Origin: Pelomonas sp. Root405
GTDB lineage: Bacteria; Pseudomonadota; Gammaproteobacteria; Burkholderiales; Burkholderiaceae_C
DNA: 64,000 nt
NCBI RefSeq assembly: GCF_001425165.1
Contig: NZ_LMDU01000002.1
Coordinates: 1-64,000, forward strand
Reading direction: 5' to 3'
Each line of letters opens with the position of its first letter. Positions within the stretch are counted from its first letter, which is position 1. Position numbers and translations under genes: made by a program. The notes under the pieces were generated by a model. It worked only from the letters and a program-made list of their open reading frames with translations. It was not told the origin of the DNA and ran no database searches. Below, piece by piece: positions 8,737-26,116 of the stretch.

Positions 8737-9104
8737 CTGAAGGCCTGCTCTTGTTCGCTCACGGCGCCCGCGACCCGGCCTGGGCGCGCCCTTTCGAGAT
8801 CGTCGCCGAACGACTGCGCACGGCGCGGCCCGGCACGCCGCTCGTGTTGGCCTACCTCGAAATCATGGCGCCCGACATGGCGGGCGCCGCTGAGCAACTC
8901 GTGGCGGCCGGCTGCACGCGTGTACATGTGCTGCCCCTGTTTCTCGGCACCGGCGGCCATGTGCGGCGTGACGTGCCGCCGTTGCTGGAGAGCCTGCGCG
9001 AGCGCCATGGCGACGCCGTCGAATGGCGGCTGCATGCGCCGCTGGGCGAGCAGGAGGCTGTGCTCAACGCCATCAGCCTCGCCTGCCTCGGCGTCCTCGA
9101 ATGA
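8733..9104 (+). CDS. cbiX: CbiX-type sirohydrochlorin chelatase, short form
   Basis: Small CbiX proteins insert cobalt or iron into sirohydrochlorin. The 123-residue product begins MTEGLLLFAHGARDPAWARP, with the active-site histidine in FAHGARD. It continues with LAYLEIMAPDM and VHVLPLFLGTGGHVRRDVP, whose second histidine completes the metal site. The length fits the single-domain CbiXS class. It overlaps lptG upstream and the CysB-type regulator downstream by 4 bases each. Linkage to a sulfur regulator suggests siroheme synthesis for sulfite reduction rather than cobalamin; this is inference. Confidence 0.85.
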   Translation: MTEGLLLFAHGARDPAWARPFEIVAERLRTARPGTPLVLAYLEIMAPDMAGAAEQLVAAGCTRVHVLPLFLGTGGHVRRDVPPLLESLRERHGDAVEWRLHAPLGEQEAVLNAISLACLGVLE

Positions 9105-10045
9105 ACCTGCATCAATTCCGCTTCGTCCAGGAAGCCGCCCGCCGCAACCTCAACCTGACCGAGACGGCCAAGGCGCTGTTCACGTCGCAGCCCGGCGTCT
9201 CCAAGGCCATCCTGGAGCTGGAGGAGGAACTGGGCGTCGACATCTTCTCGCGCCACGGCAAGCGCCTGCGGCGCATCACCGAGCCGGGCCAGCAGGTGCT
9301 CGCATGCATCGAGATCATCCTGCGCGAGGTCGGCAACCTGAAGCGCATTGGCGAGGAGTATTCGCGCCAGGACAGCGGCACCTTCTCCATCGCCACGACC
9401 CACACCCAGGCTCGATACGTACTGCCCGCGCCGGTGGCCCAGTTGCGCAAGAACCTGCCGCAGCTGCGCATCAGCCTGCACCAGGGCAGCCCGGACCAGG
9501 TCGCCAAGATGCTGCTGGACGAGACTGCCGACCTCGGCCTCGCGACGGAGTCACTGGCCCAGTACCCCGAGCTCGTCACCCTGCCCTGCTATGAGTGGCA
9601 GCACGTGATGGTGGTGCCGCGTGACCACCCTCTCGCGGCGGTCGAGCGCATCAACCTCGAACAGCTGGCCAGCGAGCCCCTGGTGTCCTACCACCCCAGC
9701 TTCACGGGCCGCACCCGCATCGACAAGGCCTTTGCAGCGCGTCACCTGACGCCCAACGTCGTGCTGGAGGCCATCGACTCCGACGTCATCAAGACCTATG
9801 TGCGCCTGGGGATGGGTGTGGGCATCGTCGCCGAGATGGCGATGCGCGAAGAGCCCGCCAACAGCGACCTGGTCGCGCGGCCGCTGGGCGCCATGCTGGG
9901 CAGCAATGTGACGCGCATCGCCTTCAAGCGCGGCGCCTACCTGCGCAACTATGTCTACGCCTTTGCCGAGCTGCTGTCGGAGCGCCTGTCACGCAAGCTG
10001 ATCGAGAAGGCCATGAGCGGCGACTCGACCGACTTCGGTATCTAG
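9101..10045 (+). CDS. CysB-family LysR transcriptional regulator
   Basis: LysR-type regulators of the CysB/Cbl group switch on sulfate assimilation and alternative sulfur source genes, usually with N-acetylserine or APS as ligand. The 314-residue product starts at the ATG overlapping the cbiX-like stop. It opens with the CysB-type helix-turn-helix (MNLHQFRFVQEAARRNLNLT, then SQPGVSKAILELEEELG). The effector domain contains TTHTQARYVLP and LHQGSPDQVA, typical of CysB. It ends tail-to-tail with fimV, with a 4-base overlap. Whether it is CysB itself or the Cbl paralogue cannot be decided here. Confidence 0.88.
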   Translation: MNLHQFRFVQEAARRNLNLTETAKALFTSQPGVSKAILELEEELGVDIFSRHGKRLRRITEPGQQVLACIEIILREVGNLKRIGEEYSRQDSGTFSIATTHTQARYVLPAPVAQLRKNLPQLRISLHQGSPDQVAKMLLDETADLGLATESLAQYPELVTLPCYEWQHVMVVPRDHPLAAVERINLEQLASEPLVSYHPSFTGRTRIDKAFAARHLTPNVVLEAIDSDVIKTYVRLGMGVGIVAEMAMREEPANSDLVARPLGAMLGSNVTRIAFKRGAYLRNYVYAFAELLSERLSRKLIEKAMSGDSTDFGI

Positions 10046-15338: not shown

Positions 15339-17114
15339 TCAGACCGGTCGGTCAGCGGTCCATTGACCGATGCGCAGGATGACGAACTCCGCCGGCTTCA
15401 AGGGCGCCACACCGATCAGGCAGACAAGCCGCCCGTTGTCCAGGTCGTTCTGCGTCATCGTCGAGCGGTCGCAGCGAACGAAGAAGGCGTGTTCGGGCTT
15501 GTCGCCGAGCAGTCCGCCCATGCGCCACTCATTGAAAAGGAAGTCGCTGACCGCCGCGCGCACCTGCGCCCACAGGGCCTCGCCGTGGGACTCGAACACC
15601 ACCCACTGCGTGCCCTTGTCGATGCTGTGCTCAAGGTAGGTGAAGTAGCGCCGCAGGTTCACGTACTTCCACTCGGGGTCGCTGCTGACGGTGCGGGCGC
15701 CCCAGAGCCGGTGGCCGCGGCCCGCGAGCGAGCGGAAGCAGTTGATGCCCTCGGGGTTGAGCACCTCTTGCTCCGCGGCCTTGATCACCGTCTCGAAGCC
15801 GATGGCACCGCGCACCACTTCGTTGGCCGGCGCCTTGAAGACGGCGCGCTCGACATCGTTGCGGGCAAAGATGCCAGCGACGAAACCAGACGGCGGCAGG
15901 TTCAGCGGCTGGTTCGTGAGCGGGTCCTGAACCGTCACCCAGGGGTAGTAAAGCGCTGCGTGGTTGCTGTCCAGCCCCGATCTGAAGTCGCGCACCCCGG
16001 CGACGCTCAGCCTTTGGGGCGGGTCAAGCAGGGCGATGCGGTATCGCATGTGCTCGGCGTGTGCGATCAGCAGCTTGTTGATGGTGGCGGCATCGCTGGC
16101 GCCGGGGGCGGCGATGGTGGCGATGTCGTCGATCAGCTCGAACTGCTTCAGCCCCGTGGCCTGGCCCAGCGCCGGGTCGGCCTGGCCCTCGTAGTCGGCG
16201 CCAGCGGGCAGCACGCCGTCGTTGCCACCGGTCAGATGGATCGTGGCCTGCAGGCCACGTTTCAGTTTCAGGCCGTCGGGCAGCGCAGCCAAAGCCCGCA
16301 GCAGGTCAATGCCATGGTTGACAACGTCTGTGCCTGCCGCGCTGCCGTCGACCAGCACGATGGGAGCGTCGCCATCCAGGCCGAACCGGTCGAAGATGCG
16401 GTCCGGGCGCAGTGGCAGCCCCTGCCAGGCGCCCAGCGAGCGGCCCGCCGCAGTCAGCACTTCGATGTCAAGCGTGAGGGCGCAGATCGCATCGGCGCCG
16501 TCGAGCGAGAAACCTGCCCCGCCGCCGCTGAAGCGCCAGCTCCCGTCATCGCCCTTGCCAGCGATGCAGACCGGCAGCTCTGCGATGCGACGCACCGCCC
16601 GACGCGATCCCACCGCAGACCTCCAGACCACGTCGCCAACGCCGAGTCCGGCCAGCGTCGGCAGCAGGTTGGGGCCGACCTTGACGGTAAAGCGGACCTG
16701 CAGATTGCCCATCGCCCCGGGGTGGCGTGCGACGACGCGAAACACATGCGGCGCGATGCCCGCCGATGCGCGCCCATGGCCGTCGTCCAGGTCCGCGGCA
16801 TCGGCGCCGCCTTGCGGACGGAACACACGGCTGACGTACAGCCGCTTGCCGCCCTCATCGAAGAAGCTGCGCACCGCATGCCAGAGGTAATTCACGCGCC
16901 CCGCCGCATCGTCTGCAGCAAAGACGAGGGGGCCGCCATCGCCATGCAGGCGCTCGAACTCCGACAGGCTGGTGATGACGACCGGCGCGCCCGCCACAGG
17001 CCCGTAGCGGCAGGGACCGAGGAAGCCCGCGGTGGATGTGCTGACCCCTTCGATGACCTTGGGCCGGGTGGTCAGCTCTTCGACATAGACACCGGGTGCA
17101 AGGTAGTCGGGCAT
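15339..17114 (-). CDS. orphan contractile tail sheath protein (phage/CIS type)
   Basis: Sheath proteins polymerise round an inner tube and contract to drive it through a membrane in phage tails, R-type tailocins and extracellular contractile injection systems. The 591-residue product (start ATG 17114, GGAG at the right spacing) begins MPDYLAPGVYVEELTTRPKV and continues VSTSTAGFLGPCRYGP. It ends with the conserved core DKGTQWVVFESHGEALWAQV, FFVRCDRSTMTQNDLDNGR and GVAPLKPAEFVILRIGQW, as in non-phage sheaths. No tube, baseplate, spike, AAA+ ATPase or other phage gene is in the window. It begins only 28 bp after soxA on the same strand and appears to be the last gene of that operon. The identification is firm; the role here is unknown. 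Confidence 0.9.
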   Translation of the reverse strand: MPDYLAPGVYVEELTTRPKVIEGVSTSTAGFLGPCRYGPVAGAPVVITSLSEFERLHGDGGPLVFAADDAAGRVNYLWHAVRSFFDEGGKRLYVSRVFRPQGGADAADLDDGHGRASAGIAPHVFRVVARHPGAMGNLQVRFTVKVGPNLLPTLAGLGVGDVVWRSAVGSRRAVRRIAELPVCIAGKGDDGSWRFSGGGAGFSLDGADAICALTLDIEVLTAAGRSLGAWQGLPLRPDRIFDRFGLDGDAPIVLVDGSAAGTDVVNHGIDLLRALAALPDGLKLKRGLQATIHLTGGNDGVLPAGADYEGQADPALGQATGLKQFELIDDIATIAAPGASDAATINKLLIAHAEHMRYRIALLDPPQRLSVAGVRDFRSGLDSNHAALYYPWVTVQDPLTNQPLNLPPSGFVAGIFARNDVERAVFKAPANEVVRGAIGFETVIKAAEQEVLNPEGINCFRSLAGRGHRLWGARTVSSDPEWKYVNLRRYFTYLEHSIDKGTQWVVFESHGEALWAQVRAAVSDFLFNEWRMGGLLGDKPEHAFFVRCDRSTMTQNDLDNGRLVCLIGVAPLKPAEFVILRIGQWTADRPV

Positions 17115-17142
17115 GGCAGTCTCCGGCGTGGGCGACGGGGCT

Positions 17143-17868
17143 TCAGGGTCGCACACCCGGCGGCTGCATCGCCATGCCGGCCGAGCGGCGCGCGAGATAG
17201 ACCTCCAGCGCCAGCAGTTCGTCGCTGTCCCAGGCCCACACCGTCGCTCGCACGCCGCTGAGGCAGCCCCGCAGGCGGCGCTGCAGACTGCCCAACGACT
17301 GCCACTCCAGCCGGAAGACCGGGTAGTCGTCCACATGGCCCTGCGGAATCAGGCTGCCACCCAGGCGCAGCCCCGCGCGGTCGTCATGGCATTGGGCGCA
17401 GGACAGGTTGAGTGCGCCGATGCGGGTCGTGTAGAGGCGCTGGCCTTGGCTCGCGGCCTTGTCGAGCGCCGCGCTTTGCGGCGGCTTGAGCGGCAGGCCG
17501 CGCGACTGCTGTGCCACCAGGGCCGTCAGCGACAGCAGGGGCTCGGCCTCCGGCTGCCACGCGGGCTGTTGCTGGTGGCGCACACGGCAGCGCTGGATGC
17601 GGCCGGGGAGGTCGATGAGACCGTGATCCCACGCGGGGTAGCGCGTGGCGGCGCCGCGCAGCTTCGCGGGCTCGCCGTGGCAGCTGGCGCAAGACTTGTC
17701 ACCGGCGGCCCACTGATCGCGGCCGAGCGCCAGCGCGAGCTGCGCGGGGTGTTGCGCATCGTCGGCCTGCAGCGTGCGCAGCGCCGGGCTCATCGTGTCG
17801 CGGCCGGAGCGGCGCTCGTCTGCCCCCGCCGGGAGCGCGACGAAGAGCAGCAGCAGCGCAGTCCTCAT
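17143..17868 (-). CDS. soxA: sulfur oxidation dihaem c-type cytochrome SoxA
   Basis: SoxA with SoxX forms the periplasmic SoxXA cytochrome that oxidatively couples a sulfur substrate to the SoxY carrier cysteine. The 241-residue product has a signal peptide. It has two haem motifs, CASCH (residues 60-64) and CAQCH (157-161), and the conserved cysteine in RLRGCLSGVRA (Cys202) that ligates the active haem in the family. KSCASCHGEPAKLRG, RYPAWDHG and FRLEWQSLGSLQRRLRGC are classical SoxA signatures. The start overlaps the soxZ stop (ATGA). No soxB follows; a tail sheath gene takes that place. Confidence 0.93.
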   Translation of the reverse strand: MRTALLLLFVALPAGADERRSGRDTMSPALRTLQADDAQHPAQLALALGRDQWAAGDKSCASCHGEPAKLRGAATRYPAWDHGLIDLPGRIQRCRVRHQQQPAWQPEAEPLLSLTALVAQQSRGLPLKPPQSAALDKAASQGQRLYTTRIGALNLSCAQCHDDRAGLRLGGSLIPQGHVDDYPVFRLEWQSLGSLQRRLRGCLSGVRATVWAWDSDELLALEVYLARRSAGMAMQPPGVRP

Positions 17869-18188
17869 GCCACGGTCAACCGGCGTGTCTCGCGGTGCTC
17901 GAAGCCCTTGTCGCCGCGCCAGACGAAGGTCAGCTCACCGGACTTGTCGGCCCGCACCCAGAAGGCCAAATACGGATTGGCCGAGACGGCCGCGAACAGG
18001 TCGGCGGCAAAGACCAGCTCGCCATCGAGCCGGCATTCAAACCGCCGGACAAGGTCGCGCGGCAGGCGGTTGCCTTCATCGCTGGCGCGGTAGCCGGTCT
18101 CCATCGGATGCGCCACCGTTGCGCGCACCTCAAAGGGCTCGCCGGCCTTGATGGCGGCGGGCAGCGTGATGACCGCGCGGGTGGTCAT
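17865..18188 (-). CDS. soxZ: sulfur carrier complex subunit SoxZ
   Basis: SoxZ is the immunoglobulin-fold partner of SoxY in the periplasmic SoxYZ carrier and is exported as a complex with it. The 107-residue product (start ATG 18188) reads MTTRAVITLPAAIKAGEPFE, then VRATVAHPMETGYR and GNRLPRDLVRRFEC, matching the SoxZ family in length and motifs. It has no signal peptide, as expected for co-export with Tat-signal-bearing SoxY. The stop overlaps the soxA start. The gap from soxY is 160 bp and is filled by a repeat element. Confidence 0.93.
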   Translation of the reverse strand: MTTRAVITLPAAIKAGEPFEVRATVAHPMETGYRASDEGNRLPRDLVRRFECRLDGELVFAADLFAAVSANPYLAFWVRADKSGELTFVWRGDKGFEHRETRRLTVA

Positions 18189-18348
18189 CAGCGCCTGCCG
18201 GGCCGCCCCAAGGGCGCTGGCGCCCCCTCGGGGGGCTGAGTCCGCACACACAGCGTCCAGTGGACGCTGTGTGGCTGACGAAGGACCGGGCCACTGGCCC
18301 GGTGCGGCCTGCAAGGCGTCGAGCGAAGCGAGCGTGGGGGCTTCATGC
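18189..18348. repeat. compound palindromic intergenic repeat between soxY and soxZ
   Basis: The whole 160-bp gap is built from inverted repeats. A 13-bp perfect palindrome with a 1-base loop lies at 18247-18273 (CACACAGCGTCCA and its complement). A 9-bp pair with a 1-base loop lies at 18285-18303 (ACCGGGCCA). There are further GC blocks such as GGGCGCTGGCGCCC. The CCCCGAGGGGGCGCC-type block resembles a dispersed intergenic element I associate with Rubrivivax/Leptothrix-type genomes. It interrupts an otherwise overlapping gene string and could process or attenuate the mRNA. Confidence 0.7.
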
Positions 18349-18759
18349 TCAGGGCTCCACGCAGGCAGCGAGCGTCACGATGACATCCATGCCTGTCTGC
18401 CAGCAGCGCCCGTCTGCCGCTTTGGCGACGGCAACGATGCGCTGGCTGCGCGCCAGGCGCATGCGGGTGCCGAACTCCGGCTTGCCGTTGCCCGCGCCCA
18501 GGCTGACCTGCACGACCTGCGGCTCCGGGTTCAGCGGCGTGAACAGGGCCAGGCCCGTCACCGGCTCGCTGGCAACGACGCGCACTGGCACCGCGTTGCC
18601 GTTCTCCACCAATTCGGCAATCTCGATCTTCAATGCCCCCGCCACAGGGTCGCGGCCGGCCCAGTCACGGATGGCCGCCTGCATCGCCTCGTCGCTGGCC
18701 TGCGCCTCGGGCAGCAGCGCCAGCGCCGTGGCGCTCATGACGAATTCGCGCCGCTTCAT
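18349..18759 (-). CDS. soxY: SoxY-like sulfur carrier subunit with an atypical C-terminus
   Basis: SoxY normally carries sulfur intermediates on the cysteine of a C-terminal GGCGG swinging arm. The 136-residue product begins with a twin-arginine-type signal (MKRREFVMSATALALLP). It contains IEIAELVENGNAVPVRVVAS and FTPLNPEPQVVQVSLG, which are clear SoxY features. The end, however, reads VTLAACVEP: the cysteine is kept but the flanking glycines are not. That may change carrier flexibility or substrate. The start codon overlaps the soxX stop. Downstream lies the repeat-filled gap and then soxZ. Confidence 0.87.
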   Translation of the reverse strand: MKRREFVMSATALALLPEAQASDEAMQAAIRDWAGRDPVAGALKIEIAELVENGNAVPVRVVASEPVTGLALFTPLNPEPQVVQVSLGAGNGKPEFGTRMRLARSQRIVAVAKAADGRCWQTGMDVIVTLAACVEP

Positions 18760-19130
18760 GGCCTGGCCAGCGTTCCGAGATAGGCCACGATGTCGTCGAG
18801 CTGCTGCTCCGTCAGCGCCGGCTTGCCGGCCCAGGCCGGCGCCACGTCGCGCAGGCCTTCGGTCGAGCGGAAAGGTGGCATCACGGTGGCGGGGTTGAAG
18901 CGCCGCATGTCGGCAATGCGCTCGCGCAAGCTTTGGGCATCCAGGCGCGCCGCGCTGGCGTCCAGCGGCGGCGCCAGATTGCCCTGGTTGGCATCGCCCG
19001 CACTGTGCAGCGCATGGCAGAGCAGGCACAGGCTCTGCGTGCGGTCGGCCACCAGCGCCCGGCCGCGCTGCGCGTCACCGGGCTCGGCCTGGGCGCCGGC
19101 CGCCACGAGCAGCAGGGCCAGCGCGTACAT
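18756..19130 (-). CDS. soxX: sulfur oxidation monohaem c-type cytochrome SoxX
   Basis: SoxX is the electron-accepting monohaem subunit of SoxXA. The 124-residue product has a signal peptide ending near GAQA. One haem motif, CLLCH, spans residues 35-39, and a candidate axial methionine lies in ATVMPPFRS (about Met84). GNLAPPLDASAARLD and LDDIVAYLGTL are typical of SoxX. The start codon overlaps the stop of the molybdenum hydroxylase large subunit (TGATG) and its stop overlaps soxY. This ties the cytochrome translationally to the hydroxylase. Confidence 0.9.
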   Translation of the reverse strand: MYALALLLVAAGAQAEPGDAQRGRALVADRTQSLCLLCHALHSAGDANQGNLAPPLDASAARLDAQSLRERIADMRRFNPATVMPPFRSTEGLRDVAPAWAGKPALTEQQLDDIVAYLGTLARP

Positions 19131-21289
19131 CACACGAGAGGCTGGTTCTTCAGCGGCAGGTCGCGCACCCGCTTGCCCGTCGCTGCAAAGATCGCGTTCA
19201 GCACCGCCGGCGCCGCCACTGCGATGGTCGGCTCGCCGACACCGCCCCAGAAGCCGCCCGAGGGCATGACGATGGTCTCGACGGCCGGCATGTGCGCCAT
19301 CTTCAGCACCGGGTAGGTGTCGAAGTTCTGCTGCTCGACGCGGCCGTCCTTGACGGTGATCTCGCCGAAAAGCGCTGCGGAAAGCCCGTAGACGAAGCTG
19401 CCCTCGACCTGCGCTGCGATCTGCTGCGGGTTGACCGCATGGCCGGGGTCGGTGGCGGCAACGATGCGGTGGATCTTCAGCTCGCCCTTCTTCGACACCG
19501 ACACCTCGGCGCAGGCCGCCACATAGCTGCCGAAGCCCATGATCTGCGCCAGGCCCAGGTGGCGGCCCTTTGGCCGTGGCTTGCCCCAGCCGGCCTTGGC
19601 GGCCACGGCGTTCAGCACGGCCAGATGCTTGGGGCTTGCGGTCAGCAGTTCGCGGCGCAGCTCCAGCGGGTCGCGCTTGGTGGCATGGGCCACCTCGTCG
19701 AGGAAGCACTCCAGATAGACCGCGTTCTGGTTCAGGTTCACGCCGCGCCAGAAGCCCGGCGGCACCGTCGGGTTGCGCATCGCATGGTCGATCAGCAGGT
19801 GGGGCACCGCATAGCCCAGCGCGCCTTCCGCGCCACCGGCGTTCAGGCCCTGGAAGACGGCCGGGTCCTTGCCGTCCTTGATGTTCTGCGGAAAGATGCC
19901 CGCGACGATGCTCTGGCCGGAGATGCGCATGTGCAGCGCAGTCAGCTTGCCCGCGGCGTCCAGGCCGGCCGTCAACTTGCACTGCGTGACCGGGTGGAAG
20001 CGGCCGTGCAGCATGTCCTCCTCGCGGGTCCAGATCAGCTTGACCGGCGTGCCGGGCAGCTCCTTGGCAATGGCCACGGCCTGGCGCACCCAGTCGTGCA
20101 CGGCACCGCGCCGGCCGAAGCCGCCGCCCAGGTGCAGCTTGTAGACCTCGCAGGCGGACGGCGGCAGGCCCGACGATTCGGCCGCCGCGGCCAGCGCAGC
20201 CTCGCCGTTTTGCGTCGGCGTCCAGACCTCGCAGCGCTCCGGCGTCCATTTGGCGGTCGCGTTCATGACCTCCATGCAGGCGTGGTTCTGGTGCGGGTAG
20301 CTGTAGACGGCCTCGACCTTGCGCGCCGCACCGGCCAGCGCGGCTTTCACGTCGCCCTGGGCGCTGCCGACCGCCGCCGTGTCGGCGTCCAGGCCTGCCT
20401 TCAGGATGGCGGCCGTGTCAGCGCTGTTCTGCGTCGCGTTGGCGCCCTCGTCCCAGACGATGGGCAGCGCGTCCAGCGCCGTCTTGGCGCGCCACCAGGT
20501 ATCCGCCACCACGGCCACGGCCGTGTCGCCGACCTTGACGACCTTCTTCACGCCCGGCCGCTTCTCGACCTCGGTCGCGTCGAAGCTCTTGAGCTTGCCG
20601 CCGAACACCGGGCAATCCTTGATGGCCGCGTTCAGCATGCCGGGCAACTGCAGGTCCATGCCGTAGACCAGCGAGCCGTCCAGCTTGGCCTTGGTGTCCA
20701 GGCGCTTCATCGGTCGGCCGGCCAGCTTCCAGTCCTTGGCGTCCTTCAGCTGGATGTCGGCCGGCGCCGCCAGCTTGGCGGCCTCGGCGGCGAGCTGCCC
20801 GTAGCTCAGCTTCTTGGCCCCATGGGTCACCCAACCCGAGGCCGTCGCGCATTCCACGACGGCCACATTCCACTGGTTGGCCGCCGCCTGGATCAACAGC
20901 GCGCGCGCCAGAGCCCCGCCCTTGCGAACGTACTCATGAGACTCGCGCACGCCGCGGCTACCACCGGTGCTCATGCTGCCCCAGGCGCGGTTGCGCGCCA
21001 GGTTCTGGCCCGGCGTCGGGTATTCGGTCTTCACCTTGGCCCAGTCGCATTCCAGCTCCTCGGCCACCAACTGGGCCAGGCCGGTCAGCGTGCCCTGCCC
21101 CATCTCGGAACGCGCAATGCGGATGACCGTGGTCTCGTCCGGGAGGATCTGCACCCAGGCGTTCAGCTCGGGCGCGGCGTTGGGTTCGGCGCTCTGGGCA
21201 AGACCCGGCACATGGAAACCGACCATCAGGCCGCCGGCAGCGGCACTCGTGGCGCTGAGGAAGCCGCGCCGGTTCAGAACGGCGCTCAT
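19130..21289 (-). CDS. xanthine dehydrogenase-family molybdopterin-binding subunit (IorB/aldehyde oxidoreductase-like)
   Basis: This is the large catalytic subunit of a two-component molybdenum hydroxylase in the isoquinoline 1-oxidoreductase/membrane aldehyde dehydrogenase group. The 719-residue product starts at ATG 21289 with a Tat signal ([20 protein letters not shown]), so the mature enzyme is periplasmic. [20 protein letters not shown] and [18 protein letters not shown] are cofactor-domain signatures. [20 protein letters not shown] near the end contains the catalytic glutamate region. No FAD subunit is encoded, so electrons must leave through the Fe-S subunit to a cytochrome. The adjacent SoxX, whose start overlaps this stop, is a candidate. 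The substrate is unknown. Confidence 0.88.
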
Positions 21290-21780
21290 GCCTGGCCTCC
21301 CTCGATGACGATGGGAATCTGCTTGCGCTGCACCTGGCCGGCCGCCAGGTGGATGGCCGCACGCACGCGGTTGTAGGTGCCGCAGCGGCAGATGTTGGTC
21401 ATGGCCGCGTCGATGTCGGCGTCGGTCGGTTTCGGCTTGCTCTTCAACAGCGCTGCGGCGGCCATCAGCATGCCGCTCTGGCAGAAGCCACACTGCGGCA
21501 CGTCGAGCGCGTCCCAGGCCTTCTGCAGTGGGTGGGAAGCATTGGGCGCCAGGCCCTCGATGGTGGTGACCTTCTGCGCCGCCGTCAGCGCCGAAGCCGG
21601 CATCACGCAGCTGCGCACCGGCGCGCCGTCGATGTGCACCGTGCACGCACCGCACTGGGCCACACCGCAGCCGTATTTGGTGCCCGTCAGGCTCAGCTGC
21701 TCGCGCAGCACCCAGAGCAGCGGCGTATCGGCTTCCGCCTCGTACTGCATCCGCTTGCCGTTGACCGTCAATTCCGCCAT
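21286..21780 (-). CDS. (2Fe-2S)-binding small subunit of the molybdenum hydroxylase
   Basis: This is the electron-transfer subunit partner of the downstream large subunit. The 164-residue product (start ATG 21780, [20 protein letters not shown]) has a plant-type 2Fe-2S motif ([16 protein letters not shown]) and a second, helical 2Fe-2S domain ([11 protein letters not shown] and [14 protein letters not shown]). It lacks a signal and is presumably exported with the Tat-bearing large subunit. The stop overlaps the large-subunit start by 4 bases. It is the first gene of the minus-strand string that continues through soxXYZA to the sheath gene. A GGGAG sequence precedes the ATG. Confidence 0.93.
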
Positions 21781-21893: not shown

Positions 21894-23462
21894 TCACCGC
21901 CGCGTCAGCACCGCCTTCTCGACAGCCGCCCAAGGCACCAGCTTGAAGTTCTGCGGCCCGTGCGGCAGGCGCTTGTGGCCGTCCTGCACGACGAGCACAC
22001 CCTCGGCGTAGGGCCCGCCCAGGTTGGCGCCGGTCAAGTCCAGCCCATCGGTTTCCGACACGGCGTCGATGCCGAGCGCCGTGTTGATGCCGATGGCAAA
22101 CGTGCCGCGCTGCGCGAATGGCCGCTTGATGTCGTAGACGGCGAAGGAGTCGCTGCCCTGCGAAGACACGACCAGCCAGCCGCGGCCGGGGTGGAGGGCC
22201 AGGCCTTCCACATCGGGCGTCAGGCCCGGGCCGGCCGTGATGACCAGCTGTGGCGCACTGCCCGCCGTGGACAGGTCCAAGCGCCAGACGCCGCGCTTCT
22301 CCTCGCCGACGAACAGCGCGCCATTCGCCTCGTCGACGACGCAGCCTTCGGGCTGGCTGTCCAGGCGGAACTCGGCGACTTGCTCGGACTGCCAGGTCTT
22401 GCCTGACAGCTTCAGCCGCAGCCGCAGCACGCGGCCGTCCTTGTCGTTCGGGAAGACATCCAGCCCGCCCTCGGCATTGCGGCCGACACAGACACCGTAG
22501 ATGTCGTCCAGCCCGGTCTTCAGCCGCGCCAGTTCGCTCACCTTGCCGCCGGCCGACACGCCGAACAGCACCAGGCCGGCCTCGTCGCGCTGCGTGGCCA
22601 CGGCCAGGTCGAGCTTGCGGCCGCCGTAGGCCAAGCCCTGGCGCAGGTCGACGTTGTTGATGCGGCCCACGGGCAGGAACTGGCGCTCGCGGCCATTCAG
22701 GCCGTAGACGGCCAGGCCGCGCTTCTTGTCGGTGCCGAGGATCAGGCTCTGCGCGCCGCTCGTCGGGTGCACCCAGATGGCGGGGTCGTCGGCCGCATCG
22801 CCGGCCTCGCGCATCGGCTGGGTCTGGCCAGTCGGCAGCACGACGGGTGGGCGCATCGGCGCCGCGGCAGCTGGGTGCTCGGCCAGCCAGGTGTCCAGTC
22901 GCGCATGCAGCGCCTTCTCGCCCGACTCGGCATCGGCCATCAGCAGGCGCCGGCCGGCCCGCTCGGCGTTGGCGGAAAGCGCCCACAGCCCCACGCCGGG
23001 TTCGGCAACGTAGAGCGTGCTCTCGGCATCGCGCACGCGGCAGGCGCTGGGCGCCAGTGGCGTGGCCAGGTGCTGCACCGGCAGCGCACGCTGGCCGTCG
23101 ATCAGCCATTGCTCGGACAAGCCTTCGTTGCCGAGCAGGAAGAGCTGCAGCAGGCCCTGCGGGTCGCGGTAGAGGCAGAGCTGCTCGACCCCCAGCGCCG
23201 GCGGGGCCCAGGCCGCGTCGCGCTTCAACTGGCCGCCTTCGGCGCGCCAGAGCTGGATCTGGCCGCTGTCGGCGTCCTGCAGCACGGCCAGCGCGCCGCC
23301 GTCGTGGCGCTGGTCCATGTGCTTGGCGCGCACGGCATGCCGGGCCAACACGCGGCCGGCGTCGTCGTACAGCTCCAGCGCTGCCTTGCCCAACGCAAAG
23401 CGCTCGGCCTGGGCGCCGCTGAGACAGGCCGTCAGGACCAGGGTCAGGAGAACGCGTTTCAT
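21894..23462 (-). CDS. beta-propeller phytase, two-domain form
   Basis: Beta-propeller phytases release phosphate from calcium-phytate. The 522-residue product has a signal peptide (to about residue 19). The C-terminal half (about 230-520) is a canonical phytase propeller with DDPAIWVHP, LGTDKKRGLAVYGLNGR and QPEGCVVDEANGALFVGEEK. The N-terminal half (about 20-210) looks like an incomplete propeller domain, as in known dual-domain phytases. The start overlaps the stop of the TonB receptor gene (TGATG). The two form a uptake-and-hydrolysis pair found in several Gram-negative bacteria. Confidence 0.9.
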   Translation of the reverse strand: MKRVLLTLVLTACLSGAQAERFALGKAALELYDDAGRVLARHAVRAKHMDQRHDGGALAVLQDADSGQIQLWRAEGGQLKRDAAWAPPALGVEQLCLYRDPQGLLQLFLLGNEGLSEQWLIDGQRALPVQHLATPLAPSACRVRDAESTLYVAEPGVGLWALSANAERAGRRLLMADAESGEKALHARLDTWLAEHPAAAAPMRPPVVLPTGQTQPMREAGDAADDPAIWVHPTSGAQSLILGTDKKRGLAVYGLNGRERQFLPVGRINNVDLRQGLAYGGRKLDLAVATQRDEAGLVLFGVSAGGKVSELARLKTGLDDIYGVCVGRNAEGGLDVFPNDKDGRVLRLRLKLSGKTWQSEQVAEFRLDSQPEGCVVDEANGALFVGEEKRGVWRLDLSTAGSAPQLVITAGPGLTPDVEGLALHPGRGWLVVSSQGSDSFAVYDIKRPFAQRGTFAIGINTALGIDAVSETDGLDLTGANLGGPYAEGVLVVQDGHKRLPHGPQNFKLVPWAAVEKAVLTRR

Positions 23463-25942
23463 CAGTGCAGGCTCCACTTCACGCCGATCTTGACGCTGCG
23501 ACCATAGCGCTCGTACTGCGCGTTCTGCGCCGGCGTGGCCTGATAGACGTAGTAAGGCTCGTTGATCAGGTTGGCCGCCTCGAAGCCGAATTCCAGCTGC
23601 TTGCTGGGCGCGTACTTCAGCGAGAAGTCCAGGCGCTTCTGGCCGTCCACGCGCAGGTCCTTGGCCGCGTCGAAGACGTCGCCGACCTCGATCAGGTAGG
23701 AGGACTGCTGGTTCATCGCCAGGCGCGTGCTGAAGCCGTGGCCCTCCCAGCCCAGGCTGAGGTTGAAGCTGCGGTCGGACTGGCTGGGCAGACTGATCTC
23801 GCGGCTCTTCCAGGTACCGCCGTCGTAGCCGCCGACGCGCGCCTTGGAGCTCACGAAGCTGACGTTGGCGCCGACGATGAGACCGTTGAACGGTGCCGGC
23901 AGGCCGCGCAGGGCCTGCGCATAGGCCAGCTCCACGCCGTGCAGCTTGGCGCTGTCGCCATTGGCGTAGGTGACGACCTCGTCGAAATCCTCCCAGCCGG
24001 GGCTGCCGGCCAGGTCGGTCTGGAAGACGAAGTCCTTGATGCGCTTGGTGAACACATAGGCCGACAGCGTGCCGTCGCGACCCAGGCCTTGCTCCACGCC
24101 GAGATCCAGGTTGCGCGAGCGCAGCGGCTTGAGCCTGGGGTTGCCCAGCTCGGCCTCGTCGCCGTCCACCAGCATGCCCGGCGACAGCTGCTCGAAGCTG
24201 GGGCGCACCAGCGAACTCGTCAGCGCCGCGCGCAACAGCAGCTGGTTGCCGAAGTCGTGGCGCAGCAGCAGCGCAGGCAGCCAATGCGTACTGCGTGTGT
24301 CGACGCTGACGGGCTGCGCTTCTTCATTGAACAGCGCCATGCCGCGCGCCTTGAACGTGATGCGTTCCATGCGCAGTCCACCCAGCAGCTGCAGGCCGCC
24401 GCTTTCCCAGGTGGCCTGGGCATAGCTGGCATCGATGTTTTCCTTCATGTCGAAGTCGCCCACCAACGAATCTTCATCGTCGCGCGAGCCGGCCAGGTCG
24501 ATGCCGCGCCACAGCGCGCGCACCTTGCCCGCGTCGATGGCCGGACCGAAGCCGCCGCCCCATGGGTAGCTGACGCCACCGCTGCCGGCCACGTCGGCCA
24601 GGCCGCGCTCGCCCAGCGTGTCGCTGTCCAGCACATACGTTTCCTGCTGGTTGTCCTTGTGGCGGCGCGTGGCCTTGGCGCCGGTCATGAACTCCAGGCT
24701 GGCGCCGCCGGCCAGGTCAAAGCTGCGCTTCAGGTCCAGCTTCAGGTGGCGCACGCGGTCGCGGGCACGGCTGTCTTCCACCTCCACCTCGTCCAGCTCG
24801 TAGGCCGACGCATCACGCAGCGCGGCCGGGCTTTGCAGCAGCGGGCGGCGGCTGTCCGCAAAGCCCAGGCCGGCGAAGTCCGCCTCGAAGGCTGCGCCCG
24901 CCAGCCCCTCGGGCGTCCGCTCTTCCGCGCGGCCCAGGCCGGCCTCGGCGCCGAGTTGCCAGCCCGCTGCTTCCACGCTGCCGCCCAGTGCCAGCGACGC
25001 CGTGCGGGCCGTCTCCTTGCGTGCCTTCAGGCTGCGCACGACCGTGCCTTCGCCCAGTTCACCGGCGCCCTGCGCATCCTCGAACTCCACAGCCAGCGAC
25101 TGGCGCTGCTCGTCGTCGGTAAAGCGGCTGGCAAAGCCGCGCAGATACAGCTGCTGGCCGGCGGCGGGCCGCCAGTCCAGGCTCATCGCCGCACCCGTGC
25201 GCGAGCGCAGGATGGTGTAGCGGCGCAGCTCCAGCTCCTCCAGCTTGCCGTCCTCGTCCCAGGCGCCGCCGGTCTCGACGTTGTCGCTGGCGAAGCGGCG
25301 CTGGTCGCGTGACACCGACACGGCCAGGCCCAGCTTGCCGTCTGCAAAGCGGTCGGCGAAGGTCAGCCCGGCGCGGGGCCGGGTCTTGCCCAGATTGCTG
25401 TCGTGGTTGGCACCGGCATCCAGCACCAGCAGCCTGCCCTGCACGTCGAACGCCGTCAGCGTGTTCACGCTGACGCTGCCGCCCAGGCTGCTCGCATCCA
25501 TGTCGGGTGTCAGCGTCTTGTGCACTTCCAGCGAGCGGATCAGGCCGGCCGGCACCACGTCCAGCCCCGGCGCGCGGCGACCGGCCTCGGAGGCCGGCAC
25601 CGTGGCGCCGTTGATGCTGATGGTGTTGTAGTCCGACCCGAGGCCGCGCACCCGCACGAAGCGGCCCTCGCCCTGGTCGCGCTCCAGCGTCACGCCGGGC
25701 AGCCGGGCCAGCGCCTCGGCGGCGTTGTCGTCAGGCAGCTGGCCGATGGCGTCGGCATGCACGACGCTGAGCAGCCCTTGAGCGTCGCGCTGCTTGTCCA
25801 GCGCCGACCGCAGGCTGGCGCGCTGGCCGGTGACGACGACGCTGTCGAGCTGCCGGGGCTGGGTTTGGGCTTGGGCCGAGAAGGCCAGGCCCAGGGCCAG
25901 GCCGAGCAGGCTCAGGCGCGGGAGTTTGTTGTTGTGATGCAT
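23462..25942 (-). CDS. TonB-dependent outer membrane receptor (phytase-linked)
   Basis: This outer-membrane beta-barrel transporter is driven by TonB. The 826-residue product starts at ATG 25942 (MHHNNKLPRLSLLGLALGLA) with a signal peptide ending at AQA, followed by the TonB-box-like LDSVVVTGQRAS. The plug domain has DNAAEALARLPGVTLERDQG, RVRGLGSDYNTISINGA and SLGGSVSVNTLTAF, in the style of the TIGR01782 receptor group. It ends YERYGRSVKIGVKWSLH with a C-terminal aromatic-rich strand. Coupling to the phytase suggests uptake of phytate or its breakdown products; this is inference. Confidence 0.92.
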   Translation of the reverse strand: MHHNNKLPRLSLLGLALGLAFSAQAQTQPRQLDSVVVTGQRASLRSALDKQRDAQGLLSVVHADAIGQLPDDNAAEALARLPGVTLERDQGEGRFVRVRGLGSDYNTISINGATVPASEAGRRAPGLDVVPAGLIRSLEVHKTLTPDMDASSLGGSVSVNTLTAFDVQGRLLVLDAGANHDSNLGKTRPRAGLTFADRFADGKLGLAVSVSRDQRRFASDNVETGGAWDEDGKLEELELRRYTILRSRTGAAMSLDWRPAAGQQLYLRGFASRFTDDEQRQSLAVEFEDAQGAGELGEGTVVRSLKARKETARTASLALGGSVEAAGWQLGAEAGLGRAEERTPEGLAGAAFEADFAGLGFADSRRPLLQSPAALRDASAYELDEVEVEDSRARDRVRHLKLDLKRSFDLAGGASLEFMTGAKATRRHKDNQQETYVLDSDTLGERGLADVAGSGGVSYPWGGGFGPAIDAGKVRALWRGIDLAGSRDDEDSLVGDFDMKENIDASYAQATWESGGLQLLGGLRMERITFKARGMALFNEEAQPVSVDTRSTHWLPALLLRHDFGNQLLLRAALTSSLVRPSFEQLSPGMLVDGDEAELGNPRLKPLRSRNLDLGVEQGLGRDGTLSAYVFTKRIKDFVFQTDLAGSPGWEDFDEVVTYANGDSAKLHGVELAYAQALRGLPAPFNGLIVGANVSFVSSKARVGGYDGGTWKSREISLPSQSDRSFNLSLGWEGHGFSTRLAMNQQSSYLIEVGDVFDAAKDLRVDGQKRLDFSLKYAPSKQLEFGFEAANLINEPYYVYQATPAQNAQYERYGRSVKIGVKWSLH

Positions 25943-26116
25943 TGCAAATGCCGACTGAGTGGGTGGATAGCCGCCATGCTCGCGACCACCCATGGCGCCC
26001 GTTTGAATCGGTTGTCACAAAGGCGGGTTGGCGCACGCCGGTGTGGCGCGTGAGCCGATCCGACTCCCCCGCCGCGCCTTCGCCACGCTGTCACACGGCC
26101 TTCATACGATGCCGCG

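Follow-up and report, generated by a model that had tools for sequence, protein, structure and literature searches.

Gene content of the locus

The window analyzed here, a 64,000-nucleotide stretch of DNA from Pelomonas sp. Root405, includes seven minus-strand genes that the first-pass annotation had described as one coupled string. All seven are present, with profile matches far beyond chance (Table 1). Coupling through overlaps holds at the FeS/Mo (4 bp), Mo/SoxX (1 bp), SoxX/SoxY (4 bp) and SoxZ/SoxA (4 bp) junctions, and the hydroxylase stop overlaps the soxX start as had been described. It fails between soxY and soxZ, which are 160 bp apart in this genome. This spacer is missing or shorter in other Roseateles, and the junction measures -1 or -4 bp in 8 of the 14 rows compared (two rows represent the same species). 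A promoter scan returned no promoter-like sites, and the terminator-like sites (5, versus 3.2 in shuffles) were uninformative.

Table 1. Features of the gene string, with positions in the window
Feature	Position	Strand	Length	Profile evidence
[2Fe-2S] subunit (FeS), two-subunit molybdenum hydroxylase	21286..21780	-	164 aa	Fer2_2 3.6e-27, Fer2 7.8e-10
Mo (molybdopterin) subunit, isoquinoline 1-oxidoreductase / aldehyde dehydrogenase type	19130..21289	-	719 aa	MoCoBD_1 1.9e-33, MoCoBD_2 6.5e-31
SoxX, monoheme cytochrome c (CLLCH)	18756..19130	-	124 aa	TIGR04485 66.5 bits (cut-off 61)
SoxY variant, AACVEP carrier arm	18349..18759	-	136 aa	TIGR04487, Pfam SoxY
soxY-soxZ spacer with inverted repeats	18189..18348	-	160 bp	
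SoxZ	17865..18188	-	107 aa	Pfam SoxZ 5.5e-24
SoxA, diheme cytochrome c, active-site cysteine (RGCLSG)	17143..17868	-	241 aa	TIGR04484 178.6 bits (cut-off 110)
Contractile tail sheath, orphan, module neighbor only	15339..17114	-	591 aa	Phage_sheath_1 2.9e-21, phrog_23 1.1e-57

The inclusion of the sheath gene in the string was not borne out. It lies 28 bp from soxA here, and in the loci of the genus that were examined it is either missing or 28 to 3273 bp away. Three other Roseateles loci (L194-L196) have a contractile-injection locus at the same place, to which the sheath belongs. When nine probes taken from this locus in L195 were compared, all nine matched L194 and L196. In the window the sheath probe alone found a counterpart, and the tube, baseplate and hub genes of a contractile injection system do not stand beside the sheath. 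The sheath was thus rejected as a member of the module.

The Mo subunit and its FeS partner fit a two-subunit IorAB-type hydroxylase, since both subunits are present and the family Glu and Arg are conserved. Glu686 and Arg515, which we take to be the catalytic residues of the active site, occur in 77/77 aligned relatives (the mis-cut fragments L225 and L229, both of which were in the Mo tree, were excluded from this alignment). The N terminus, judged by eye, resembles a Tat-type signal. The closest solved relative is 8gy3_C (1.4e-72), from an aldehyde dehydrogenase that presumably works with a cytochrome c subunit. As in the aldehyde dehydrogenase and isoquinoline 1-oxidoreductase enzymes, an FeS and a Mo subunit, probably exported, are found and no FAD subunit is encoded in the string, as the earlier description had noted. 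Those enzymes work on a free substrate with a cytochrome that is either their own or free; in the window, Sox carrier genes follow.

SoxX and SoxA score above the cut-offs of their NCBIfam profiles (TIGR04485, E 2.6e-18; TIGR04484, E 1e-52), and SoxA also matches structure 2c1d (1.3e-29). The SoxA cysteine is present in 62/62 SoxA sequences, including the window's, from loci with SoxX and SoxA, canonical ones among them. This conservation suggests that the locus has the cysteine-ligated active heme that canonical Sox requires of SoxXA. SoxZ falls slightly below its NCBIfam cut-off (5.3e-21; 74.4 bits, cut-off 76). SoxY matches Pfam SoxY (1.3e-21) and scores 72 bits with the true-SoxY profile. 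Its best NCBIfam match is TIGR04487, the SoxY-related "AACIE arm" protein (1.3e-31), with which it shares the cysteine context (AACVE), although its 109.4 bits are below the cut-off of 172. Its C-terminal arm reads AACVEP instead of the canonical GGCGG, and the arm cysteine is found in 83 of 84 aligned SoxY sequences. A literature search for AACIE together with SoxY gave no match. The locus resembles the canonical thiosulfate system in its SoxXA with the catalytic cysteine, SoxY and SoxZ, and differs from it in the arm and in the lack of SoxB; no SoxCD was seen among 30 scanned window ORFs.

Conservation of the module and a separate SoxY clade

The FeS-Mo-SoxXYZA string is a conserved module. 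A sample of 60 SoxY loci with a Mo gene nearby was compared, representing 58 genomes (L072 and L203 belong to one species, and L093 and L104 come from a single genome). SoxX, SoxY, SoxZ and SoxA were all found in 48 of the 60, and the synteny looked for in relatives was found, 44 of these 48 keeping the window's gene order, 40 with the FeS gene found and four without; L092 was scored as another gene order only because a second FeS gene was picked. Within the order the module is spread over at least 11 families, and it also occurs in three families that belong to another class, the genus, order and class of some of the compared genomes being inferred. Among 399 genomes of the order, 66 have a SoxY match, 72 a Mo match (E <= 1e-200) and 63 have both.

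Within the sample, the linkage is specific to one SoxY type. A Mo gene lies within 7 kb in none of the 17 loci whose SoxY has a GGCG tail, versus 60 of the 67 with another tail. In the SoxY tree, which included 20 of the 30 canonical control loci (L011-L040) and left out L212 (no cysteine in the last 25 residues as cut), one split with support 0.9 parts 37 GGCG-type from 60 Mo-linked sequences without error. Across the module the arm typically reads AAC-hydrophobic-Glu/Asp in place of GGCGG; the SoxY of L098 was mis-cut and its true end is SSCG. Members of TIGR04487 above the cut-off occur in 14 of 398 genomes of the phylum, in two families (f88 and f32), and the loci from such genomes in the tree (L109, L113, L173, L174 and L176) group on the same side of the split as the window's SoxY. 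That the genes merely share an operon and have no common function is hardly credible: relatives of the FeS-Mo pair do occur on their own, but the order is kept in all those families and the linkage to SoxY type is strict within the sample.

In 12 of the 60 Mo-linked loci SoxX and/or SoxA are lacking, yet SoxY and SoxZ are retained. Near ten of these 12 there is no CxxCH ORF that could supply a replacement cytochrome; L111 has its own SoxA and one antisense-looking CxxCH ORF, and L098 could not be placed. Among 20 loci chosen by their Mo gene, none has SoxX or SoxA without SoxY; since loci were otherwise found mainly through SoxY, those with Mo and SoxX/A but no SoxY could escape outside this set. 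These observations bear on whether the hydroxylase simply oxidizes a free aldehyde or N-heterocycle and passes the electrons to SoxXA, with SoxYZ as a bystander. The missing FAD subunit and the kinship with the aldehyde dehydrogenase 8gy3 are in line with such a cytochrome outlet. However, the 12 loci that retain SoxY and SoxZ but lack SoxX and/or SoxA, and the absence of the converse among the 20 Mo-chosen loci, speak against it, and the conserved cysteines of SoxY and SoxA would be needless. We consider it improbable.

FeS-Mo relatives with no Sox genes on the fetched stretch make up 17 of the 20 Mo-chosen loci (one is a 3.8-kb contig), an observation that counts against a function tied to the Sox carrier. 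In the Mo tree such genes nest among the Sox-linked ones, and inspection by eye showed no common partner gene beside them. Candidates for partners beyond the six module genes were likewise rejected by eye, the clusters being lineage-bound or tctC-type solute-binding proteins. The free-standing relatives also argue against a role of SoxYZ and SoxXA in cofactor upkeep, in which they would maintain the sulfur ligand of the exported Mo enzyme by restoring Mo=S in the periplasm. SoxYZ carries sulfane sulfur, and the accessible part of one report describes the equatorial sulfur ligand of xanthine-oxidase-family enzymes (PMC2997495); nonetheless, this proposal does not explain the co-occurrence with flavocytochrome c sulfide dehydrogenase (FCSD) described below, and it appears distinctly improbable.

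SoxB and flavocytochrome c in module genomes

The absence of SoxB, first noted for the window, extends to the whole 5.8-Mb genome, where no match exceeds the family cut-off. The sole weak match reaches 58 bits (cut-off 550), and sub-cut-off matches of the same kind occur in 10 of 14 control genomes. No second SoxY was found there either, and on these two counts a complete sox set elsewhere in this genome, which would have spoken against the initial interpretation, was rejected. No SoxC-type Mo domain was detected at E 1e-10 by Pfam in 30 window ORFs outside the module, a part of the window's ORFs. SoxB above the cut-off is also lacking in 20 of the 66 genomes of the order with a window-type SoxY match, this genome included. 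Of these 20 genomes, 14 reach a completeness of 90% or more, and G680 contains a sub-cut-off SoxB fragment. SoxB is nevertheless commoner in module genomes (46/66) than in other genomes (35/80, sampled from 333), which would fit the use of inorganic sulfur equally well. In the 46 genomes with SoxB a separate sox set could contribute.

FCSD was found in 15 of 16 Roseateles with the module and in none of four without it (Fisher p 0.001, which ignores kinship; the genomes were hand-picked). However, FCSD is not peculiar to the module. Of 13 non-module genomes, 6 have an FCSD above the cut-off, and 8 of 17 GGCG-type loci have one on the stretch that was fetched. Among the 60 Mo-linked loci only 7 have FCSD inside the module or next to it, six times between Mo and SoxX (five of them among the 44 window-order loci) and once behind soxA. 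The window operon has no SoxF/FCSD, and one FCSD is encoded on another contig of the same genome.

These distributions would also fit an inorganic variant, in which FeS-Mo would be a sulfane dehydrogenase replacing SoxCD on SoxY-bound sulfane, derived from sulfide via FCSD or from thiosulfate, with release by a SoxB encoded elsewhere or by another route. The logic would be that of SoxCD, itself a Mo enzyme, and the co-occurrence and partial linkage of FCSD and the higher frequency of SoxB in module genomes favor it. On the other hand, 20 of the 66 module genomes lack SoxB above the cut-off, the known substrates of the xanthine-oxidase family are C-H groups or CO, and the second cluster of Starkeya novella, described below, is very low on thiosulfate. 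We regard this variant as unlikely.

A possible carrier pathway and its known relatives

The first-pass annotation had suggested that SoxXA and SoxYZ serve the hydroxylase, either by carrying a bound substrate or as a cytochrome outlet. Their conservation as a unit with no soxB in the string supports the general idea. Of the two options, the carrier is favored and the outlet is not, because 12 of the 60 loci keep SoxY and SoxZ without SoxX and/or SoxA and none of the 20 Mo-chosen loci shows the converse. We propose, with a probability of about 0.45, that the Mo enzyme oxidizes a SoxY-bound sulfur compound in a periplasmic carrier pathway independent of SoxB. As the conserved parts suggest, SoxXA would use its cysteine-ligated heme to attach a reduced sulfur compound to the SoxY arm, at the only cysteine there; loading must differ in the 12 loci in which SoxX and/or SoxA are lacking. 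The arm, to judge from the linkage, would present its load to the FeS-Mo hydroxylase instead of SoxB or SoxCD. By the chemistry of the family, the enzyme would hydroxylate the bound group, taking the oxygen from water, and electrons would leave through the 2Fe-2S centers to a cytochrome c, the probable acceptor because there is no FAD subunit.

As to the load, our best guess, an unlikely one on our own estimate, would be an organic thiol, for example methanethiol. Hydroxylation of the carbon beside the sulfur would give an S-hydroxymethyl group, which is unstable and would be released as an aldehyde, and the remaining sulfane or sulfide would pass to FCSD. We lowered our estimate slightly because FCSD is as common near canonical sox loci. 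The module might then form a third and so far unrecognized Sox branch, in which SoxXA loads thiols on a dedicated SoxYZ arm, the xanthine-oxidase-type Mo enzyme oxidizes the carbon, aldehyde and sulfide are delivered, the latter for flavocytochrome c, and organosulfur compounds are respired without SoxB and with no periplasmic sulfate; the odds are well against this full scheme. If the carrier reading is true, this would be, to our knowledge, the first Mo hydroxylase acting on a protein-bound sulfur substrate. In either event, roles of SoxYZ beyond thiosulfate can be tested on the module, since its gene set is defined and its arm signature readable. Genomes are often called thiosulfate oxidizers on the basis of soxY, soxX or soxA. 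Such calls are unsafe for organisms with the module, because its SoxY forms a separate clade with its own Mo partner, often without SoxB in the sampled genomes.

The combination is not new to the literature, although the first-pass annotation knew of no described pathway with this composition. According to the accessible text of a 2013 report, Starkeya novella has a second sox cluster, soxX2Y2Z2A2F2, with a xanthine-oxidase-family Mo enzyme (Snov_1975/1976); its SoxAX and SoxYZ were undetected, its transcripts were very low, and the authors assigned it no functional significance, at least in the conditions that they used (PMC3797975). It is the only printed instance we found, and it is left unexplained there. 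Both operons hold SoxXA, SoxYZ and the Mo enzyme and lack SoxB and SoxCD. The Starkeya cluster also has SoxF2, as some module loci have FCSD and the window operon does not, and its printed gene order seems different from the window's. The Mo gene is not treated in the accessible parts of PMC10708946, PMC7074706 and PMC11582611, and PMC11237559 contained none of the terms looked for. It is known, as far as the available portion of one report goes (PMC12997753), that SoxYZ-like carriers can accompany periplasmic dehydrogenases of other kinds. TIGR04557, the quinoprotein dehydrogenase-associated carrier, is likewise a SoxYZ-type carrier tied to a dehydrogenase other than SoxCD, but there a fused SoxYZ accompanies PQQ enzymes, whereas the window has separate SoxY and SoxZ and a Mo enzyme. 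In Bradyrhizobium, soxY1 and not soxY2 is essential to thiosulfate oxidation, according to the accessible text (PMC5748708), and we infer that soxY2 encodes a SoxY of the module type.

Gene content of the string

The minus-strand string of seven genes described in the first-pass annotation is present in the window sequence, in the order FeS, Mo, SoxX, SoxY, SoxZ, SoxA and sheath. The six module genes, coding for the [2Fe-2S] (FeS) and molybdopterin (Mo) subunits of a two-subunit molybdenum hydroxylase and for the four Sox proteins, were recognized by NCBIfam and Pfam, and the sheath by Pfam and PHROGs. Both hydroxylase subunits matched many xanthine-dehydrogenase-family models, every one under its cut-off. 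The solved chain nearest to Mo was 8gy3_C, an aldehyde dehydrogenase large subunit (1.4e-72), and "isoquinoline 1-oxidoreductase beta subunit" was a frequent name on its near relatives (120 of 7999 among the matches listed). SoxA retains two CxxCH motifs and the active-site cysteine, SoxX retains its CxxCH, and SoxY retains its cysteine in an arm that reads AACVEP, not GGCGG. The best NCBIfam match of SoxY was the SoxY-related AACIE arm family (109 bits, cut-off 172) versus 72 bits for true SoxY; therefore, the arm type as such already has an NCBIfam name. The window opens contig C2 of a 5.8 Mb genome, and the closest named relatives belong to Pelomonas/Roseateles. The lack of SoxB noted for the window extended to this whole genome, where none was found over the cut-off, and with a single SoxY no second sox set was seen.

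Features in and around the module
Feature	Positions	Strand	Remark
LysR-type regulator	9023-10045		cluster c22
Tail sheath	15339-17114	-	
SoxA	17143-17868	-	
SoxZ	17865-18188	-	
soxY-soxZ spacer	18189-18348		160 bp; inverted repeats CACACAGCGTCC/GGACGCTGTGTG and CCCCCCGAGGGGGC
SoxY	18349-18759	-	
SoxX	18756-19130	-	
Mo	19130-21289	-	
FeS	21286-21780	-	
Phytase gene and TonB-dependent receptor	21894-25993		upstream of module; phytase by Pfam, 8e-57

The second motif of the spacer repeats has one occurrence in the window. Among the 14 rows for other Roseateles, 8 have a soxY-soxZ junction of -1 or -4 bp.

Conservation and link to the SoxY arm

The module is a real, conserved and little-studied Sox variant whose composition has been printed once. 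When the window SoxY was compared with 399 genomes of the order (threshold 1e-12; 1e-200 for the Mo protein), SoxY matches were found in 66 genomes and Mo matches in 72, with 63 common to both. The gene neighborhoods mapped (L numbers), a chosen part of all matches, were drawn from the order matches, named records, the genus Roseateles and a phylum scan with TIGR04487. A Mo gene lay within 7 kb in 60 loci (58 genomes) of the 84 mapped with a SoxY match; since loci were picked mostly by SoxY similarity, such proportions hold for the sample and not for all bacteria. SoxX and SoxA were both present in 48 of these 60 loci, and one or both were missing in 12. The synteny holds in relatives, as 44 of the 48 XYZA loci have the window gene order (40 with FeS found, 4 without), and they represent no fewer than 11 families within the order, plus three from another class that is probably Alphaproteobacteria. 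The flanking genes differ from family to family. A form with neither SoxX nor SoxA, FeS-Mo-SoxY-SoxZ or Mo-SoxY-SoxZ (L084, L085, L091, L094, L095, L098, L103, L116 and L117), has SoxY arms such as TACGG or SSCG and may be a distinct pathway.

In the sample, the presence of the Mo gene follows the arm type. None of the 17 GGCG-type (canonical) loci had a Mo gene near SoxY, and 30 short canonical loci (L011-L040) had no Mo match within about 1.5 kb. One split of the SoxY tree (support 0.9) divides 37 GGCG from 60 Mo-linked proteins with zero errors. Seven non-GGCG loci had no nearby Mo gene (L090, L101, L105, L115, L175, L210 and L212); the first four combine XYZA with an AACIE-like arm, and all four of their genomes carry a Mo relative elsewhere, in three of them beside another SoxY match by coordinates. 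The Mo tree, whose set included 20 Mo matches picked for having no adjoining SoxY match, was less clean, with solo Mo proteins nested among the Sox-linked ones. The fetched stretch was free of Sox genes in 17 of these 20 loci (one being a 3.8-kb contig), two had XYZA and one had YZ plus A. Thus, the FeS-Mo pair also occurs alone. Some of the 17 close relatives of the pair whose fetched stretch is Sox-free (L213-L219, L221-L226 and L228-L231) come from genomes that also carry the module.

The first-pass annotation knew of no described pathway of this composition, but one is in print. The second cluster of Starkeya novella, soxX2Y2Z2A2F2, lacks SoxB and SoxCD and includes a xanthine-oxidase-family Mo enzyme; its SoxAX and SoxYZ went undetected in proteomes, its expression was very low, and one subunit of its SoxF-like protein was found at low levels. 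The authors suggested no functional significance and left other growth conditions open (PMC3797975). In Bradyrhizobium diazoefficiens, soxY1 is reported as essential for thiosulfate oxidation and soxY2 as not (PMC5748708); soxY2 would be of the same type as the window SoxY, and family f88 of the sample would be Bradyrhizobium. A paper that set three Polynucleobacter SOX clusters, one with four genes, beside the Bradyrhizobium ones does not contain the term "molybd" (PMC3308952). The literature searched, which is short of most subscription journals, yielded nothing that links the arm type to the Mo enzyme or describes how widely the module occurs.

SoxB, flavocytochrome and proposed mechanism

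SoxB was found over the cut-off in 48 of 72 genomes examined, including 46 of the 66 order genomes with a SoxY match, and in 35 of the 80 order genomes sampled among those lacking such a match. A flavocytochrome c sulfide dehydrogenase (FCSD) flavoprotein (Pfam FCSD_central, 2.1e-50; 5n1t_A, 1.6e-147) is encoded between Mo and SoxX in six loci (L092, L173, L174, L176, L179 and L180) and behind soxA in L079, that is, in or beside the module in 7 of 60 Mo-linked loci. Of the 17 GGCG-type loci, 8 (L182-L185, L189, L190, L192 and L207) also have FCSD somewhere within the stretch fetched, and it is therefore not special to the module. In a search of 80 chosen genomes, counted over the cut-off, FCSD was present in 15 of the 16 module-bearing Roseateles versus 0 of the 4 that lack the module (Fisher p 0.001 within the genus, kinship uncorrected). 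Elsewhere in this chosen set, it was found in 17 of the 19 other module genomes that lack SoxB, in 19 of the 20 chosen ones that have SoxB, in all 8 genomes from the other class (six of which were mapped as carrying the module) and in 6 of the 13 genomes without the module. In the window's own genome, FCSD lies on contig C11. In SAR324 bins, SoxY and SoxZ flank FCSD with no further sox subunits (PMC4782131).

Gene content and order, arm type, conserved residues, linkage and FCSD co-occurrence are what was observed here. In the proposed mechanism, SoxXA would load SoxY, the SoxY arm would serve the Mo enzyme, and electrons would pass to cytochrome c. Of the two roles suggested earlier for SoxXA and SoxYZ in the service of the hydroxylase, that of substrate carrier is preferred to that of cytochrome outlet, given that loci without X and A retain Y and Z. 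An organic thiol as the load of SoxY is a guess, and quite unlikely to be right; an inorganic variant of the mechanism is rather unlikely.

The sheath and other neighbors

The sheath had been counted as part of the string, and it reads instead as the remains of a neighboring locus. It is separated from soxA by 28 bp in the window and by 70 bp in L193, and the other gaps run from 1656 to 3273 bp. A contractile-injection locus occupies the site behind soxA in L194, L195 and L196, with Pvc16_N, sheath, gp19-type tubes, CIS_tube, and hub and spike domains in L195. The sheath, a full-length lone gene in each case, is the sole injection-locus match in the window, L193, L197, L198 and L199. A sheath and a Pvc16-like piece are left in L200 and a single other piece in each of L073 and L201, and no injection-locus piece was matched in L071, L072, L202 and L203. 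There is an apparent stepwise loss of this locus behind soxA in Roseateles (L193-L201). Across the genus, a sheath match occurs somewhere in 15 of 20 genomes. The sheath tells nothing about the hydroxylase.

A membrane protein, MscS-like by eye, is encoded between soxA and the sheath in L199 (11666-13267) and L198 (13022-14629). The LysR-type regulator, which we take by eye to be CysB-like, belongs to a cluster found near the module again in L071-L073.
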